Of a stretch of 64,000 nucleotides of DNA, positions 18,290 through 24,520 are shown one piece after another. The position numbers and the translations under genes were made by a program. The stretch covers positions 1 through 64,000 of the forward strand of contig JADZGD010000143.1 of assembly GCA_020854055.1 (NCBI GenBank), written 5' to 3'. The first letter of the stretch is position 1. Every line of letters starts with the position of its first letter. This stretch comes from Bryobacterales bacterium (GTDB taxonomy: Bacteria; Acidobacteriota; Terriglobia; Bryobacterales; Bryobacteraceae). The notes under the pieces were generated by a model that searched no databases, was not told the DNA's origin, and saw only the letters and a program-made list of their open reading frames with translations.

Positions 18290-18553
18290 CTAAAACGGGA
18301 TGCAGGCAAGCCCTGCGGCCGGCTTGCGGCGTGGCGCCGATCGCAGGCGCCGCAGGTGCGCGTTTAACTCACTCAACGATCCGAAAAAGCCGCTGAAGCG
18401 CGGGTCCAAACGCCCGGGAGAGCGCCGCCTCTGACGAAAATCGCGCGGCTGGAACGTATCGGTTACCGCCACCACCGCCGTCCCCATCGGACGGTACTCG
18501 TGCGTGCCTTCAGCCCAGGCTACTTCGTCGTCAATCCAGAGCGCAAATCCCAT
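18290..18553 (-). CDS. small soluble protein at end of the PBP operon
   Basis: An 87-residue protein starting at the ATG 18553, 8 bases after the stop of the lipoprotein gene, with GGGGGTGG as ribosome site. It begins MGFALWIDDEVAWAEGTHEY and contains MGTAVVAVTDTFQPRDFRQRRR and FFGSLSELNAHLR. No signal peptide or membrane helix is present. A longer in-frame start exists at 18637 inside the previous gene but gives unlikely sequence. The regular amino-acid composition suggests a real conserved gene. Function unknown. Confidence 0.6.
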   Translation of the reverse strand: MGFALWIDDEVAWAEGTHEYRPMGTAVVAVTDTFQPRDFRQRRRSPGRLDPRFSGFFGSLSELNAHLRRLRSAPRRKPAAGLACIPF

Positions 18554-18561
18554 CCACCCCC

Positions 18562-20370
18562 CTACTGCGACAGCTTGCGGTAGATTTCCAGGCTGCGGCG
18601 GCCCTCGGCGGTATCGCCCAGAACCTTGGCCCGCCATTCGAACAGACGCGGAAAGTACAAGCAGGCGAACACAGGGATGCCGTCATTTGCCGGAATGGGG
18701 AACCGTTCCAGCAGCGGCCGGGCTTCGCCAAGGGCACCGCTCTCCACCAGCGCGGACGCCAGCAGCGCCCTCTCCGCGCCGCTGCCCGCGGGCTCCAACT
18801 GGGCCACCAGGCTCCGCAGAACCGGCACGGCTTCCCGCGGCTCATGATCCAAAAGCAGCGCGTACGCAACTGAGCTCATCCTCAGAACAGCCGCTTGTGG
18901 ACCGGGAAAGGTCTTTCCGGCACGCTGCTCCCACTCGGCCGCCCCCGCCGGCGGCTGGCACAAGAAGGCTGTGACTGCCGCGATCACACGCGCCGCACCG
19001 TCGCCTCCCGCGCCACGGAGGGCCTGCTGTGCCTGGGCGAGCGCCTCCGGACGCGAATCCGACACGATCGCCCACAGCGCCCTCTGACCATGTGCCAGCG
19101 CCGCAACCGTGTCTTGCCCGTACAGCGCCTCCATCTCTCGCAGAGCCTGTTGCCGCCGCCCGGAGATGTACAGCCACTGTGCCTGGGTCAGGCCAATGCG
19201 CGGGTCCTTCGCGCGCTCGCGAAATTCGACATAGCGGCTCATCACCGCATCGGCGCCCGTTAGGTCTCCCGTCATCAGGCGCGCCCAGGCGGCTTTGAGC
19301 AACGACCCGGCGCCGAGAAAAGACGGCTTCATCCGGTTTGCCCGGAGATAAGCCGCTTCAGCCTCCGCGAAAGACCCGAAGTAGAATTCGATATCGCCCG
19401 CCGAATCGTCGGCATTGGGATTCGACGGATCGGCAGCTTTCCAGCCCGCGACGGCCCGCTCAGCGCCGGACTTATTCCCGGCAAAAGCCTCGGCATAGGT
19501 GAGCTGGTTCCAGGCGGCGGAATTCTTTGGATTGAGCCGCGCCGCCTGCCAATAAAGCCGCGCCGAGGAGGTGAATGCACGGCTGCGATAGGCCTCCGCC
19601 CCCAGCTCGAGTAGTTTTTCCGCGTCCTCGCCGCAATATTCCAGCACGGCCGACGCAGCCCTGTCCAGATTCGCCTGCTCCCCCGCGCCAAGGGCTGCCC
19701 GGAAGCCGATCTGCGCCTCTTCGGCATCGCCCAGCTTTGCCCGCCGCGCCTTTGCCAGAACCCGCTCCACGCCCTCCTGATCGCCCATCGCGCTTTTCAA
19801 CCGCAATAACTCCAGATACGCGGGACCGAAACCAGGATCGGCCTCAATCGCCTGCTCCAATAATTCCACGCCGGCCTGTGGATCTTTTCGCCCGCCGGCT
19901 TCGCTCCAATCGCGCAGCGCCACTGCGCGAGCTTCGGGGAACATCCGCAGCCGCCGTATGCCTGCCGATCGCGAAATCGCCGTCGCGGCAGCCACCAGCG
20001 TATCGGGAGTATAGGTTCCGTCGACCACCGGCCGCACCTGCCGCGCCGACGGCCGCTCGACGAAGCTGTAAACCTGCACTGTGCCTTCGCGCGCGATGTA
20101 ATAACCCGAAATCACCTCGCCCGCGCCGGTAGCGATCGCATCTCCCGTCGTTGCCGCCGCCATCACCCGCGTTCCGCCGGCCAGTTGATAGCGGGCCACG
20201 GCGGCCAGCGCCGTTCCCATCCAGTCCGCCCGGTGGTCTCCGGAGAGGTTTTCAAATGGCAGGACGGCGATCGCTCCCGGCGCGGGCGTCTCCCGCCGGC
20301 GGCAGCCGGGAATCACCAGGGTCAACAGCAAGCAGAATACAAGGACACATCGAGTTTCGCTAAAGAACAC
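18562..20370 (-). CDS. lipoprotein with TolB-like N-domain and TPR repeats
   Basis: A 602-residue lipoprotein: the lipobox VIPGC puts the acylated cysteine at residue 23, and the following arginines favour outer-membrane sorting. Residues 34-130 resemble the TolB N-terminal fold (IAVLPFENLSGD, a helix, VISGYYIAREGTVQVYSF). The rest is a long TPR-like helical array, including FGPAYLELLRLKSAMG and NSAAWNQLTYAEAFAGNKSGAE. Its start overlaps the end of the TPR gene by 11 bases, and a UB2H-type PBP gene lies just upstream. TolB-N-like folds occur in LpoB, the PBP1B activator, so a similar role is plausible here. Confidence 0.8.
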   Translation of the reverse strand: MFFSETRCVLVFCLLLTLVIPGCRRRETPAPGAIAVLPFENLSGDHRADWMGTALAAVARYQLAGGTRVMAAATTGDAIATGAGEVISGYYIAREGTVQVYSFVERPSARQVRPVVDGTYTPDTLVAAATAISRSAGIRRLRMFPEARAVALRDWSEAGGRKDPQAGVELLEQAIEADPGFGPAYLELLRLKSAMGDQEGVERVLAKARRAKLGDAEEAQIGFRAALGAGEQANLDRAASAVLEYCGEDAEKLLELGAEAYRSRAFTSSARLYWQAARLNPKNSAAWNQLTYAEAFAGNKSGAERAVAGWKAADPSNPNADDSAGDIEFYFGSFAEAEAAYLRANRMKPSFLGAGSLLKAAWARLMTGDLTGADAVMSRYVEFRERAKDPRIGLTQAQWLYISGRRQQALREMEALYGQDTVAALAHGQRALWAIVSDSRPEALAQAQQALRGAGGDGAARVIAAVTAFLCQPPAGAAEWEQRAGKTFPGPQAAVLRMSSVAYALLLDHEPREAVPVLRSLVAQLEPAGSGAERALLASALVESGALGEARPLLERFPIPANDGIPVFACLYFPRLFEWRAKVLGDTAEGRRSLEIYRKLSQ

Positions 20371-21127
20371 GCGGCTCCCACGCCAGCAGTTGCTGAAATT
20401 CCGGCAAGTCCTGCAGTTTTGCGAACTCCGGATCCGCTTTCAGTCTAGCGCGGTCCTTGAAGCCTTCCTCAAGCGCTTTCCTCACATATAGCAGCGCGCG
20501 GTCGTAATTGCCCACCTTGGCATACAATTTGGCCAGATAGTAGTGATACTTGGCCACTTCCTCCAGGTTGCGCTGCTGCAGCATGACTCCCTGCGTGCCG
20601 CGGCGTTCGAAGACTTCCGGATCGAGCGCCAGCGCCTGCTGGTAGGCCTCGACGGCGTCCTTATATTTTTTGCGGGCGAAGTATGCCGTGCCCATATTGC
20701 CGTAAATCGATGCCGCTCCCGGCGAAATTTGAATGGCCTTTTTATAATATTTAATCGCCTTGCGGAAGCTACGCTTCGAATAGTACACCGTCCCCAGGTT
20801 ATTCAACCCTTCGGCATACCGTGGATTGATCCGGATCGCCCGTTCGTAATGACGTTTTGCGCTGTCAATTTCGCCCAACTGGTGGTAGGCGATTCCGGTC
20901 TTGTTCCAGATTGCAGCGGTGTCCTGGGGAGCTTTCTTGTAGGCGTCGATCGCCTCGCGGAAGCGTTTGTGCGCCATGAAGATGTCACCCCGCATTTCCC
21001 AACTGAGGGCACTCGGGTCAGGAAGCGATTGAGCGGTGCGGGCAGGCTGGAGCTGATCGGAACTTGCCCGCGCACCGGTGCAAAGTAACACGAAAGACGC
21101 AAAACCGATGAACGAACGGGAAACCAT
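20360..21127 (-). CDS. exported TPR protein in the PBP operon
   Basis: A 255-residue protein with a signal peptide (FIGFASFVLLCTGARA). At least four canonical TPR motifs follow, such as AIWNKTGIAYHQLGEIDSA, YAEGLNNLGTVYYSKRSF and AASIYGNMGTAYFARKKY. The C-terminus has two looser repeats (KYHYYLAKLYAKVGNYDRA). It lies 17 bases after the PBP stop and overlaps the lipoprotein gene. Its layout recalls CpoB, the periplasmic TPR regulator of PBP1B, although no N-terminal coiled coil is seen. Confidence 0.85.
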   Translation of the reverse strand: MVSRSFIGFASFVLLCTGARASSDQLQPARTAQSLPDPSALSWEMRGDIFMAHKRFREAIDAYKKAPQDTAAIWNKTGIAYHQLGEIDSAKRHYERAIRINPRYAEGLNNLGTVYYSKRSFRKAIKYYKKAIQISPGAASIYGNMGTAYFARKKYKDAVEAYQQALALDPEVFERRGTQGVMLQQRNLEEVAKYHYYLAKLYAKVGNYDRALLYVRKALEEGFKDRARLKADPEFAKLQDLPEFQQLLAWEPRVL

Positions 21128-21144
21128 GACGGCCTCCTTACAAC

Positions 21145-23682
21145 CTACTTAAATATATCGCGAATACGCCCGAACAGACCCTTTTTCTTCTTCGGCTGTT
21201 CCGGCGGCTGTGGCGGTGGCTGAACGGGAATCGCCACGCTCATCGGCGGACGGTTGATCATCGCCGGCGGGCTGCCAGCGCTCTGCACCGGAACCGTTGC
21301 CGCCGGCGCCGCGCCCGTGGCCGGCTCCACTGGCTGGGTATCCCATCCGGCCACCTGCATCGACCCGCCTCCGCCGTGTACGTGGCACATCGCTACCGGC
21401 TGCGTACCGGCAATGAACTCCTCCGCCCGCCGCGTTGGGCATGCCGAAGTGGCTAATTCGCCCGAGGTTGGATCGATCTCCACCGAGACGACACCCTCGG
21501 GAGGGTCGAACGGCTTGGGATTGCGGTATTCACGGTATTGCGCCGCCCTCTTCATGAACTCGGCCCAGATCGGCAGCGCCGAGTGCGCTCCTTCAAGATG
21601 CAGTTCCTCGTTGTCGTCGAAGCCCACCCACACCACGCAGATCAGCTTGGAGGTGAAACCGGCAAACCAGCCGTCGTGCGACGTGCCGGTCTTGCCCGCC
21701 GCCGGCAGGTTAAACCCGCGCGCACGCACCCCGGCTCCGGTCCCGCTGCGCAACACCTCTTCGAGCAGATCCACCATCAGGTAGGCCACCCGCGGATCAA
21801 GCACTTGCCGCTTCACCGCCCTGTACTCGTAAATACTCTGGCCGCGGTCATCCCGAATGTACTTGATCCAGTTCGGCTTTACGTAGAGGCCCTGGTTGGC
21901 GAATATCGTGTACGCCCCGGCCACCTCGATCGGCGTCACTTCGTAAGCCCCCAGCGCGATGGCCGGCGTCGCCTGGATGTTGTAGTTCATGCCGGCCTTC
22001 TTGGCCAACTCTTCCACTGCGCCATAACCCACCATCTCGGCCAGTTTCACCGTCGGCACGTTCATCGAATCGGCCAGCGCTTCCCGCACCGTCACCAACC
22101 CGTGGAACTTCGACCGGAAGTTGTTCGGTTCGTACGGCTTATTGTCGAACCAGAAGGTGGTCGGCTCATCCACCAGCGTCGATGCCGGCGTAATGACCCG
22201 CGCCGCGCCTTCGAGCGCCGTGTTCAGCGCCGCCGCATAGACGAAAGGCTTGAACGCCGAACCGGGCTGACGCTTGGCCAGTGCCCGGTTGAGCTGGCTG
22301 GCTCCATAGTTCCGGCCGCCAATCAGCGCCTTGATTTCGCCGGTCTGCGGGTCGAGCGCCACCAGGGCCGCCTGGGCCTCCGGTACCTTCGGGTTCCGCG
22401 CGCGGCGGCGCGCCAGCGCAGCGTCGGTCTCGGCCAGCCCGACCCGTACGGCTTCGGCAGCGGCACGCTGCAGGTTCACATCGATCGTGCTGTATATGCG
22501 ATAGGAGTTCGCCTGGAAGTCCTTGTCCTGGAACTGGTCCTGAACCTCCTCGTTCACCAGGTCCACGAAATACGGAGCATCGGTCGCCTCCATGCCCGAA
22601 TGGGCCAGCACCAGCGGCGACGCGGCCGCTTCGGCATACTGCTGGTCGCTGATAAAGCCGTTCTCCCGCATCAGCCCGAGAACTACGTTGCGCCGGTTGC
22701 GCGCCCTCTCCGGCCGGCGGAATGGGTTGGTGGCCGATGGCGCATGAATCACGCCCGCGATGGTCGCCGCCTCGGGCAACGTCAGCCGGGAGATGTCCTT
22801 ACCAAAAAATACCTGCGCCGCTTCGCCAAAACCGGAGATGCCAAAACTGCCCCGTTGTCCCAGCGGCACCTGGTTGGCATAAAACTCGAAGATCTCTTCC
22901 TTGGTCAGCCGCTGCTCCAGTTGCAGCGTGATCATGATCTCCGCCAGTTTGCGCCGCCAGGTGCGCTGCATCCGCTCGTCATCAAGCCACACCAGCCGCG
23001 CCACCTGCATGCTCACCGTCGAGGCGCCCTGGGCATTCTTACGCTCCTTGACATCGATGTAGGCGGCTTTCAGCACACGCAGCGGATCGAAGCCGGAGTG
23101 CTGGAAAAACCGCTTGTCCTCGGCCGACACCACGGCATCCACCAGCACTTTAGGTATGTCGGCGAACTTCACCAGCCGGCGCTTCTCCCGCTTGCGGTCG
23201 AACAGATTGGTTACCAGTTCCGGCTCCAGCAAGTACTGCGTCCGTTCGGTGTTGTCCCGCAGGGAAATGATGCCGGCTACCCGGTTGCCGTTCACCTTGA
23301 TCACCCCGGCTTCGTTATCGAAATAGGAGTCCGGACCGGGAAAGATCTCGACCGCGTCCGGCCGCACGTGATACCACCCCATGCGATTGGAGCGCGATTC
23401 ACTGTATCCGCTGCGGCGCAGTTGGCTGACGATTTCGGCTACCGTCGTCTCATCGCCCATGCCGATGGTTCGCGGCGCCGCGAAGATTTTCGAAGTGTTC
23501 GGGAAGACACCGGTCGCCAGCCGCTGTTCGATCAACCGGGAAAACTTTACATAGTAGTAGGTGAAAACTCCGCCGCTAAGGATCAGTAAAGCCACCAGCG
23601 CCGCCACCATCGTCTTGCCGGCTGGGTGCAGGAGAAAGCGAACCAGGGGTGCTCTATTGCGGACTTGTACACGAACCGCCAC
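21145..23682 (-). CDS. class A penicillin-binding protein (PBP1B-like, bifunctional)
   Basis: An 845-residue inner-membrane peptidoglycan synthase. One membrane helix spans about 24-46. Residues 63-150 match the layout of the UB2H domain of PBP1B. The GT51 glycosyltransferase follows, with catalytic E188 in SAEDKRFFQHSG and GASTVSMQ at 219-226. The transpeptidase has S475-x-x-K478 (GSAFKPF), SMN at 539-541 and KTG at 664-666. The tail from about 760 is proline-rich and ends in a basic LFGRIRDIFK. It heads a tight operon with a TPR protein and a TolB-like lipoprotein. Confidence 0.95.
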   Translation of the reverse strand: MAVRVQVRNRAPLVRFLLHPAGKTMVAALVALLILSGGVFTYYYVKFSRLIEQRLATGVFPNTSKIFAAPRTIGMGDETTVAEIVSQLRRSGYSESRSNRMGWYHVRPDAVEIFPGPDSYFDNEAGVIKVNGNRVAGIISLRDNTERTQYLLEPELVTNLFDRKREKRRLVKFADIPKVLVDAVVSAEDKRFFQHSGFDPLRVLKAAYIDVKERKNAQGASTVSMQVARLVWLDDERMQRTWRRKLAEIMITLQLEQRLTKEEIFEFYANQVPLGQRGSFGISGFGEAAQVFFGKDISRLTLPEAATIAGVIHAPSATNPFRRPERARNRRNVVLGLMRENGFISDQQYAEAAASPLVLAHSGMEATDAPYFVDLVNEEVQDQFQDKDFQANSYRIYSTIDVNLQRAAAEAVRVGLAETDAALARRRARNPKVPEAQAALVALDPQTGEIKALIGGRNYGASQLNRALAKRQPGSAFKPFVYAAALNTALEGAARVITPASTLVDEPTTFWFDNKPYEPNNFRSKFHGLVTVREALADSMNVPTVKLAEMVGYGAVEELAKKAGMNYNIQATPAIALGAYEVTPIEVAGAYTIFANQGLYVKPNWIKYIRDDRGQSIYEYRAVKRQVLDPRVAYLMVDLLEEVLRSGTGAGVRARGFNLPAAGKTGTSHDGWFAGFTSKLICVVWVGFDDNEELHLEGAHSALPIWAEFMKRAAQYREYRNPKPFDPPEGVVSVEIDPTSGELATSACPTRRAEEFIAGTQPVAMCHVHGGGGSMQVAGWDTQPVEPATGAAPAATVPVQSAGSPPAMINRPPMSVAIPVQPPPQPPEQPKKKKGLFGRIRDIFK

Positions 23683-24190: not shown

Positions 24191-24520
24191 CTATCGCGAG
24201 GCATTCGGGTGGAAGTGAAGGTCAACCGTATATAGCGGCAGGTCGATCCGCACAAAGTAAGCGGCCTCCAGCTTCAGCTTTCCTGGCGACTGTGTCACCT
24301 TAACCTGGTCCGGACTGACGGGTAACCCCAGCCTGGCCGCCTCGTTTGACACATCCACCTGCAGCATCGCGGGGGTGCGCGAAAGACTTTGATCGGCCGC
24401 TACCGTATCTTCCAGCGCTCCCTGAAACTGCCAGTTCCGGTAGTAGGAAGGAATCAACAGCACCCCAAACGCCACCAGCGCCACCAGAACCGCAATCCCA
24501 GCCGCCATCCGGATCTTCAA
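24191..24520 (-). CDS. small membrane-anchored protein
   Basis: A 109-residue protein with an N-terminal membrane anchor (AAGIAVLVALVAFGVLLIP) and an exported domain of about 85 residues. The latter has a helix with AADQSLSRTPAML and alternating beta strands ending PLYTVDLHFHPNASR. It overlaps the previous gene by 4 bases (ATGA type), so the two are translated together. Similar short anchored proteins are often listed as hypothetical in Acidobacteria; no function is known. Confidence 0.7.
   Translation of the reverse strand: MKIRMAAGIAVLVALVAFGVLLIPSYYRNWQFQGALEDTVAADQSLSRTPAMLQVDVSNEAARLGLPVSPDQVKVTQSPGKLKLEAAYFVRIDLPLYTVDLHFHPNASR

Follow-up and report, generated by a model that had tools for sequence, protein, structure and literature searches.

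A conserved operon of the Bryobacteraceae joins a UB2H-type PBP to candidate TPR and TolB-N/TPR lipoprotein partners

The window analyzed here, a stretch of 64,000 nucleotides from the 4.96-Mb draft genome of a Bryobacterales bacterium, carries three consecutive genes on its minus strand, coding for a PBP1B-type class A PBP, an exported TPR protein and a lipoprotein. Docking-domain control of cell-wall synthesis has been described mainly in gamma-proteobacteria. We tentatively favor a reading of this operon as a UB2H-regulated PBP1B-type synthase with the TPR protein as its docking partner and the lipoprotein as a membrane-bound companion; domain content, gene order and translational overlap are directly observed, while the UB2H-TPR and TPR-lipoprotein contacts, the stimulation of activity and the membrane in which the lipoprotein sits are what we infer. 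An activator system, as suggested by a sequence-only reading of the window, is plausible; the roles which that reading gave to the individual proteins are probably not right.

The PBP gene (21145-23682, GTG start) encodes 845 amino acids comprising a TM segment followed by UB2H, GT51 and transpeptidase domains. It is followed after 17 nt by the gene of the exported, periplasmic TPR protein (20360-21127, 255 amino acids, ATG start, with a GGAGG ribosome-binding site upstream) and then by the lipoprotein gene (18562-20370, 602 amino acids, GTG start), all coordinates of this operon referring here and below to the minus strand. The end of the TPR gene, stop codon included, and the start of the lipoprotein gene overlap by 11 nt (20360..20370), an overlap of the same length being present in 42 of 66 named loci, and the two genes are likely to be translationally coupled. 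The ORF coordinates thus bear out the 17-base gap and 11-base overlap of the three-gene layout first proposed. Consensus scans found neither a promoter-like site nor a notable sense-strand terminator inside the three-gene stretch. The range originally proposed starts at 18290 and takes in an additional 87-aa ORF (18290-18552) downstream of the lipoprotein gene; this ORF has a single relative (L115, 56% identity), unlinked to the operon there, and lies outside the system. Positions 24191-24520 encode a small membrane protein, weakly similar to DUF4845, which is conserved just upstream of the PBP gene in the family of the window (f1) and in another family (f2; further families named below are f3, f4, f7 and f8).

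Pfam and NCBIfam models identified the GT51 (Transgly, E 5e-56) and transpeptidase (E 2e-25) domains of the window PBP, and the equivalents of the catalytic residues, E188, E248 and S475, occur in all aligned PBPs. Its score lies above the PBP_1a_fam subfamily cut-off and below that of the NCBIfam PBP_1b equivalog TIGR02071 (472.9 vs 717.75 bits), making it by the latter rule a PBP1B-like relative and not an orthologue. The UB2H domain, residues 63-158 (23209..23496), lies between the TM helix and the GT domain. The Pfam UB2H model gave no match to the window PBP, and the domain became apparent only through homologues, profiles and structure. Of 40 close relatives, 26 match Pfam UB2H and 23 the related UvrB_inter model, a profile of the window segment aligns with E. 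coli UB2H at an hhalign probability of 96 (E 3e-9), and an AlphaFold2 (AF2) model built from 58 relatives (mean pLDDT 85.6) aligns end to end, over residues 28-767, with E. coli PBP1b (5hl9; 675/695 residues aligned, Z 45.4, rmsd 5.8 Å). The proposed UB2H-like segment therefore stands, and profiles and model together indicate that the enzyme is a full-length PBP1B-type synthase and its UB2H domain genuine; this domain would act as a docking site for the regulation of the synthase.

Within UB2H, residues 140-147 (SLRDNTER, 23242..23265) are by alignment the equivalent of the E. coli LpoB-contacting loop around 186-191. PBPs with a TPR neighbor preserve the motif S-L-R-D-N-T-x-R almost without change (D143 in 84/88, T145 in 72/88), whereas the loop is variable in those without one (13/36 and 6/36, respectively), and paralogous f1 PBPs without a TPR neighbor have mostly lost it (4/5 in one clade). 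However, placed on a tree, this contrast largely follows phylogeny, the loop is missing in f8 PBPs that do have a TPR neighbor, and an independent-pairs test gave a p of about 0.25. Loop conservation was hence rejected as proof of TPR dependence, and the pattern is suggestive at most of a TPR partnership.

The TPR protein consists of about five TPR units (Pfam TPR_1, E 2e-38) behind a signal peptide spanning residues ~1-21, with cleavage between ARA and SS; most relatives end theirs in AQ-type signal peptidase I sites, and no lipobox was found on the window protein. Identity between genera amounts to 47-60%, and four residues, N75, N109, N110 and N144, form an asparagine ladder whose columns are invariant in 38 relatives. 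Such invariant ladders are typical of peptide-binding TPRs.

A groove of this type could also receive another part of the synthase. After a disordered Pro-rich tail (AF2 pLDDT <50 at residues 772-823), the last element of the PBP is a basic amphipathic helix (KKGLFGRIRDIFK, 21148..21183), modeled by AF2 at residues 836-844 and conserved among aligned tails. Binding of the TPR protein to this disordered basic tail instead of UB2H, as a chaperone or recruiter, would agree with both the asparagine-ladder groove and the conserved helix, but we judge it distinctly improbable, a similar helix being present in many PBPs without a TPR neighbor and in E. coli PBP1B. For the same reason the helix is more likely membrane-associating, and it was rejected as a TPR-specific feature.

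Conservation of the operon was assessed in 80 independently found named loci of the Bryobacterales/Bryobacteraceae (Acidobacteriota), chosen by similarity to the TPR protein and not by their neighbors, 70 of which had room on both sides. The three genes occur in the order PBP-TPR-lipoprotein in 53 of these 70 loci, so that a separation of the genes in most relatives, named beforehand as the result that would speak against the system, was looked at and rejected; the gene order is conserved far beyond chance. The rest comprises 11 loci with TPR and lipoprotein genes but no adjacent PBP, 4 with PBP and TPR genes but no lipoprotein, and 2 with the TPR gene alone. Two contigs from metagenome-assembled genomes titled Acidimicrobiia and Arcobacter (L137, L139) carry Bryobacteraceae-type genes and are probably misnamed bins.

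The two partners differ in their distribution. Lipoprotein homologues were found in 33 of 61 genomes (60 relatives searched), nearly all of them in f1, and BLAST homologues are confined to this family apart from weak TPR matches; in essentially every fetched locus the TPR gene lies directly upstream. The PBP-TPR pair extends beyond f1 to other families of the class, namely f2, f4 and f7 together with two genomes of f3 and three of f8, although most f3 and f8 PBPs have no TPR neighbor, and most of the other families with the pair lack the f1-type lipoprotein. PBP-TPR would thus be the older pair and the TPR protein the older partner, as judged from this distribution. Behind the pair, f4 and f7 encode a secreted protein of TolB-N+TPR architecture (L050, L052), with an NfeD-type protease coming next. 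The orthologue of this secreted protein in the genome of the window (35% identity) is not the lipoprotein but an orphan, so that two different proteins of TolB-N+TPR architecture occupy the same position. The orphan itself (L210:7888-9093, contig G000:C28) is likewise a secreted TolB-N+TPR protein.

The lipoprotein starts with a signal peptide and lipobox (VIPGC, Cys23; 20302..20370), the cysteine being conserved in 49 of 53 aligned relatives. Residues 33-134 (19969..20274) form a TolB-N/FlgO/LpoB-type domain of b-a-b-a-b-b-b-a topology, delimited by DSSP of the model and by profile matches, and residues 149-602 (18565..19926) a TPR superhelix of helical pairs running to the C-terminus (Pfam TPR_19, E 2e-9). 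The AF2 model (pLDDT 95.1, pTM 0.91) shows a signal helix, this N-domain and then TPR-type helices. Conservation is strongest in TPR residues 281-410, which include N288, Y292, D322, K359 and W399, with a mean relative entropy of 1.91 vs 1.49 for the N-domain. A single-sequence scan of the genome contigs with the lipoprotein confirmed no relative.

The fold of the N-domain was assigned from topology and profile comparisons, since Foldseek and VIA searches with the whole model returned lists filled by the TPR superhelix that barely probed this domain. At E<=10, the only PDB matches to its profile were three TolB or FlgO sequences, all of them weak (E 0.08-0.48), and single relatives match TolB_N and FlgO in Pfam. 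Against a profile of the LpoB family, made mostly of acidobacterial PF13036 members together with E. coli LpoB, hhalign gave a probability of 97 (E 5e-10), unrelated domains and 20 column-shuffled profiles remaining at about 1 or less; against E. coli LpoB alone the probability was 2.2, and a TolB_N profile gave no match, although with only three poorly aligned sequences it was uninformative. PF13036 itself matched neither the lipoprotein nor, at E<=1e-5, any protein of the genome. These comparisons and the model topology place the N-domain in the TolB-N/FlgO/LpoB fold group, without any particular closeness to E. coli LpoB, and the earlier description of a TolB-N-like domain joined to TPR repeats is upheld. 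The linker between the lipidated cysteine and the N-domain counts about 9 residues in the window and 8-15 in 49 relatives (median 9), so the domain is expected to stay at the membrane surface. In five named relatives (L092, L121, L143, L144, L149), and likewise in L029 and L035, an uncleaved hydrophobic anchor replaces the lipobox, which hints that an outer-membrane site may not be essential.

The sequence-only reading had the TolB-type domain (residues 34-130) dock on UB2H in the manner of LpoB, with the TPR protein tuning the synthase in the manner of CpoB. It has the fold group right, UB2H is present and the three-gene order is conserved. Set against the ~145 Å disordered tether through which E. 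coli LpoB reaches UB2H (PMC6220978), however, the linker of the lipoprotein is very short; its conservation peaks in the TPR region and not in the N-domain, E. coli LpoB alone goes unmatched, some relatives keep an uncleaved anchor, and the lipoprotein is missing where the PBP-TPR pair persists. Nor does the TPR protein resemble CpoB in the relevant respects: the matches listed for it do not include the TolA-binding domain PF16331, which the same method finds in E. coli CpoB, no tol genes lie beside the operon, and TolB_N has no match in the genome or in f1. We therefore rejected a CpoB identity and regard this assignment of roles as improbable.

Another reading holds that the genes are merely co-expressed envelope genes, the TPR protein and the lipoprotein forming a separate scaffold or sensor without direct control of the PBP. 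The TPR-lipoprotein linkage is indeed tighter than that of PBP and TPR genes (64/70 vs 57/70), the TPR and lipoprotein genes remain together where unlinked from the PBP (G013, G027, G030), and the CadC sensor domain (3ly8) also figures in the Foldseek list for the lipoprotein. Moreover, the TolB-N+TPR module is generic in the window's genome, which holds two membrane-anchored examples and one secreted example elsewhere. Against this stands the adjacency of PBP and TPR genes across several families, with a median gap of 21 nt among relatives, which is more than co-regulation usually keeps; on balance we find a separate scaffold rather unlikely.

In the two membrane-anchored examples (L207, L209; G000:C44:77975 and C44:117684), a cytoplasmic N-domain and a TM segment precede the TolB-N-like domain, with TPR repeats behind it. 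Such modules of acidobacterial membrane regulators and CadC-type sensor domains have the same order as the window protein, TolB-N-like domain first and TPR second, but differ by their N-terminal cytoplasmic domain and TM segment from what is here a lipoprotein encoded in a PBP operon.

Among known activators, the closest precedent is LpoP, not LpoB. In Pseudomonas aeruginosa, LpoP docks on UB2H, stimulating both activities (PMC7267771), and in Acinetobacter baumannii a two-TPR lipoprotein encoded beside PBP1B, found by the same kind of neighbor logic, activates PBP1B (PMC7943195). These systems resemble the window in their UB2H-type PBP1B, their tandem-TPR partner and, as reported for Acinetobacter, the gene adjoining that of the PBP. 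LpoP, however, carries its own lipid anchor on a long disordered tether, whereas the window TPR protein has neither lipobox nor long tether and the lipid anchor sits on a third protein. The LpoB/PBP1B/CpoB set of E. coli likewise combines a UB2H PBP with an exported TPR protein and a lipoprotein that has a TolB-N-like domain; in the window, by contrast, all three genes share one operon, the TolB-type domain is joined to a 450-residue TPR superhelix in place of a long tether, and the TPR protein lacks both the TolA-binding trimerization domain and a tol-pal context. LpoA, the partner of PBP1A in E. coli, is comparable as a lipoprotein whose long region of helical repeats belongs to a PBP-activator context, but it carries its TPR-like helices beside the anchor and ends in a different C-domain, whereas the window lipoprotein has its TolB-type domain beside the anchor, and PBP1A is of the ODD type, unlike the UB2H-type window PBP. 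An LpoA identity was rejected on the reversed domain order and on the absence of an LppC match among the families listed. For the Acidobacteriota, no paper on UB2H or on class A PBP activators was found in the open-access literature, in agreement with the initial statement that no such activators are described in this phylum, although PF13036 sequences do occur in other classes: 44 of 149 sampled acidobacterial genomes encode LpoB-family proteins (L174-L203), none belonging to the window's class.

The reading that we tentatively favor thus makes the exported TPR protein the likeliest direct docking partner of UB2H, on account of its greater age, its invariant asparagines and the LpoP and A. 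baumannii precedents; it would act in an LpoP-like manner without a lipid anchor of its own. The lipoprotein, with a long TPR superhelix behind a TolB-type domain that lies near the anchor at the presumed membrane surface, and with its conservation peaking in TPR residues 281-410, would be the membrane-bound companion, serving as anchor or sensor. It would most likely bind the TPR protein, the PBP or both and set where or when the synthase is switched on. Counting against this reading, TPR proteins are promiscuous, the window TPR protein lacks the lipobox and long tether of LpoP, conservation of the UB2H loop tracks phylogeny, and in several close families the PBP has neither partner in its vicinity.

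More broadly, it is possible, though we hold this with greater reserve, that in the Acidobacteriota a UB2H-type PBP is under the control of a two-protein activator, made of a periplasmic TPR adaptor and a TolB-N/TPR membrane lipoprotein, UB2H docking then being an ancient control point with interchangeable partners rather than a recent innovation of the gamma-proteobacteria. The presence of a full UB2H domain in this phylum, together with conserved neighbors of TPR and TolB-N fold, argues for an older docking domain whose partners were exchanged. This view predicts a far older origin of docking-domain control of cell-wall synthesis, with the TPR protein a likelier docking partner than the lipoprotein, and it yields a short list of candidate proteins that may be the first synthase activators of the Acidobacteriota.
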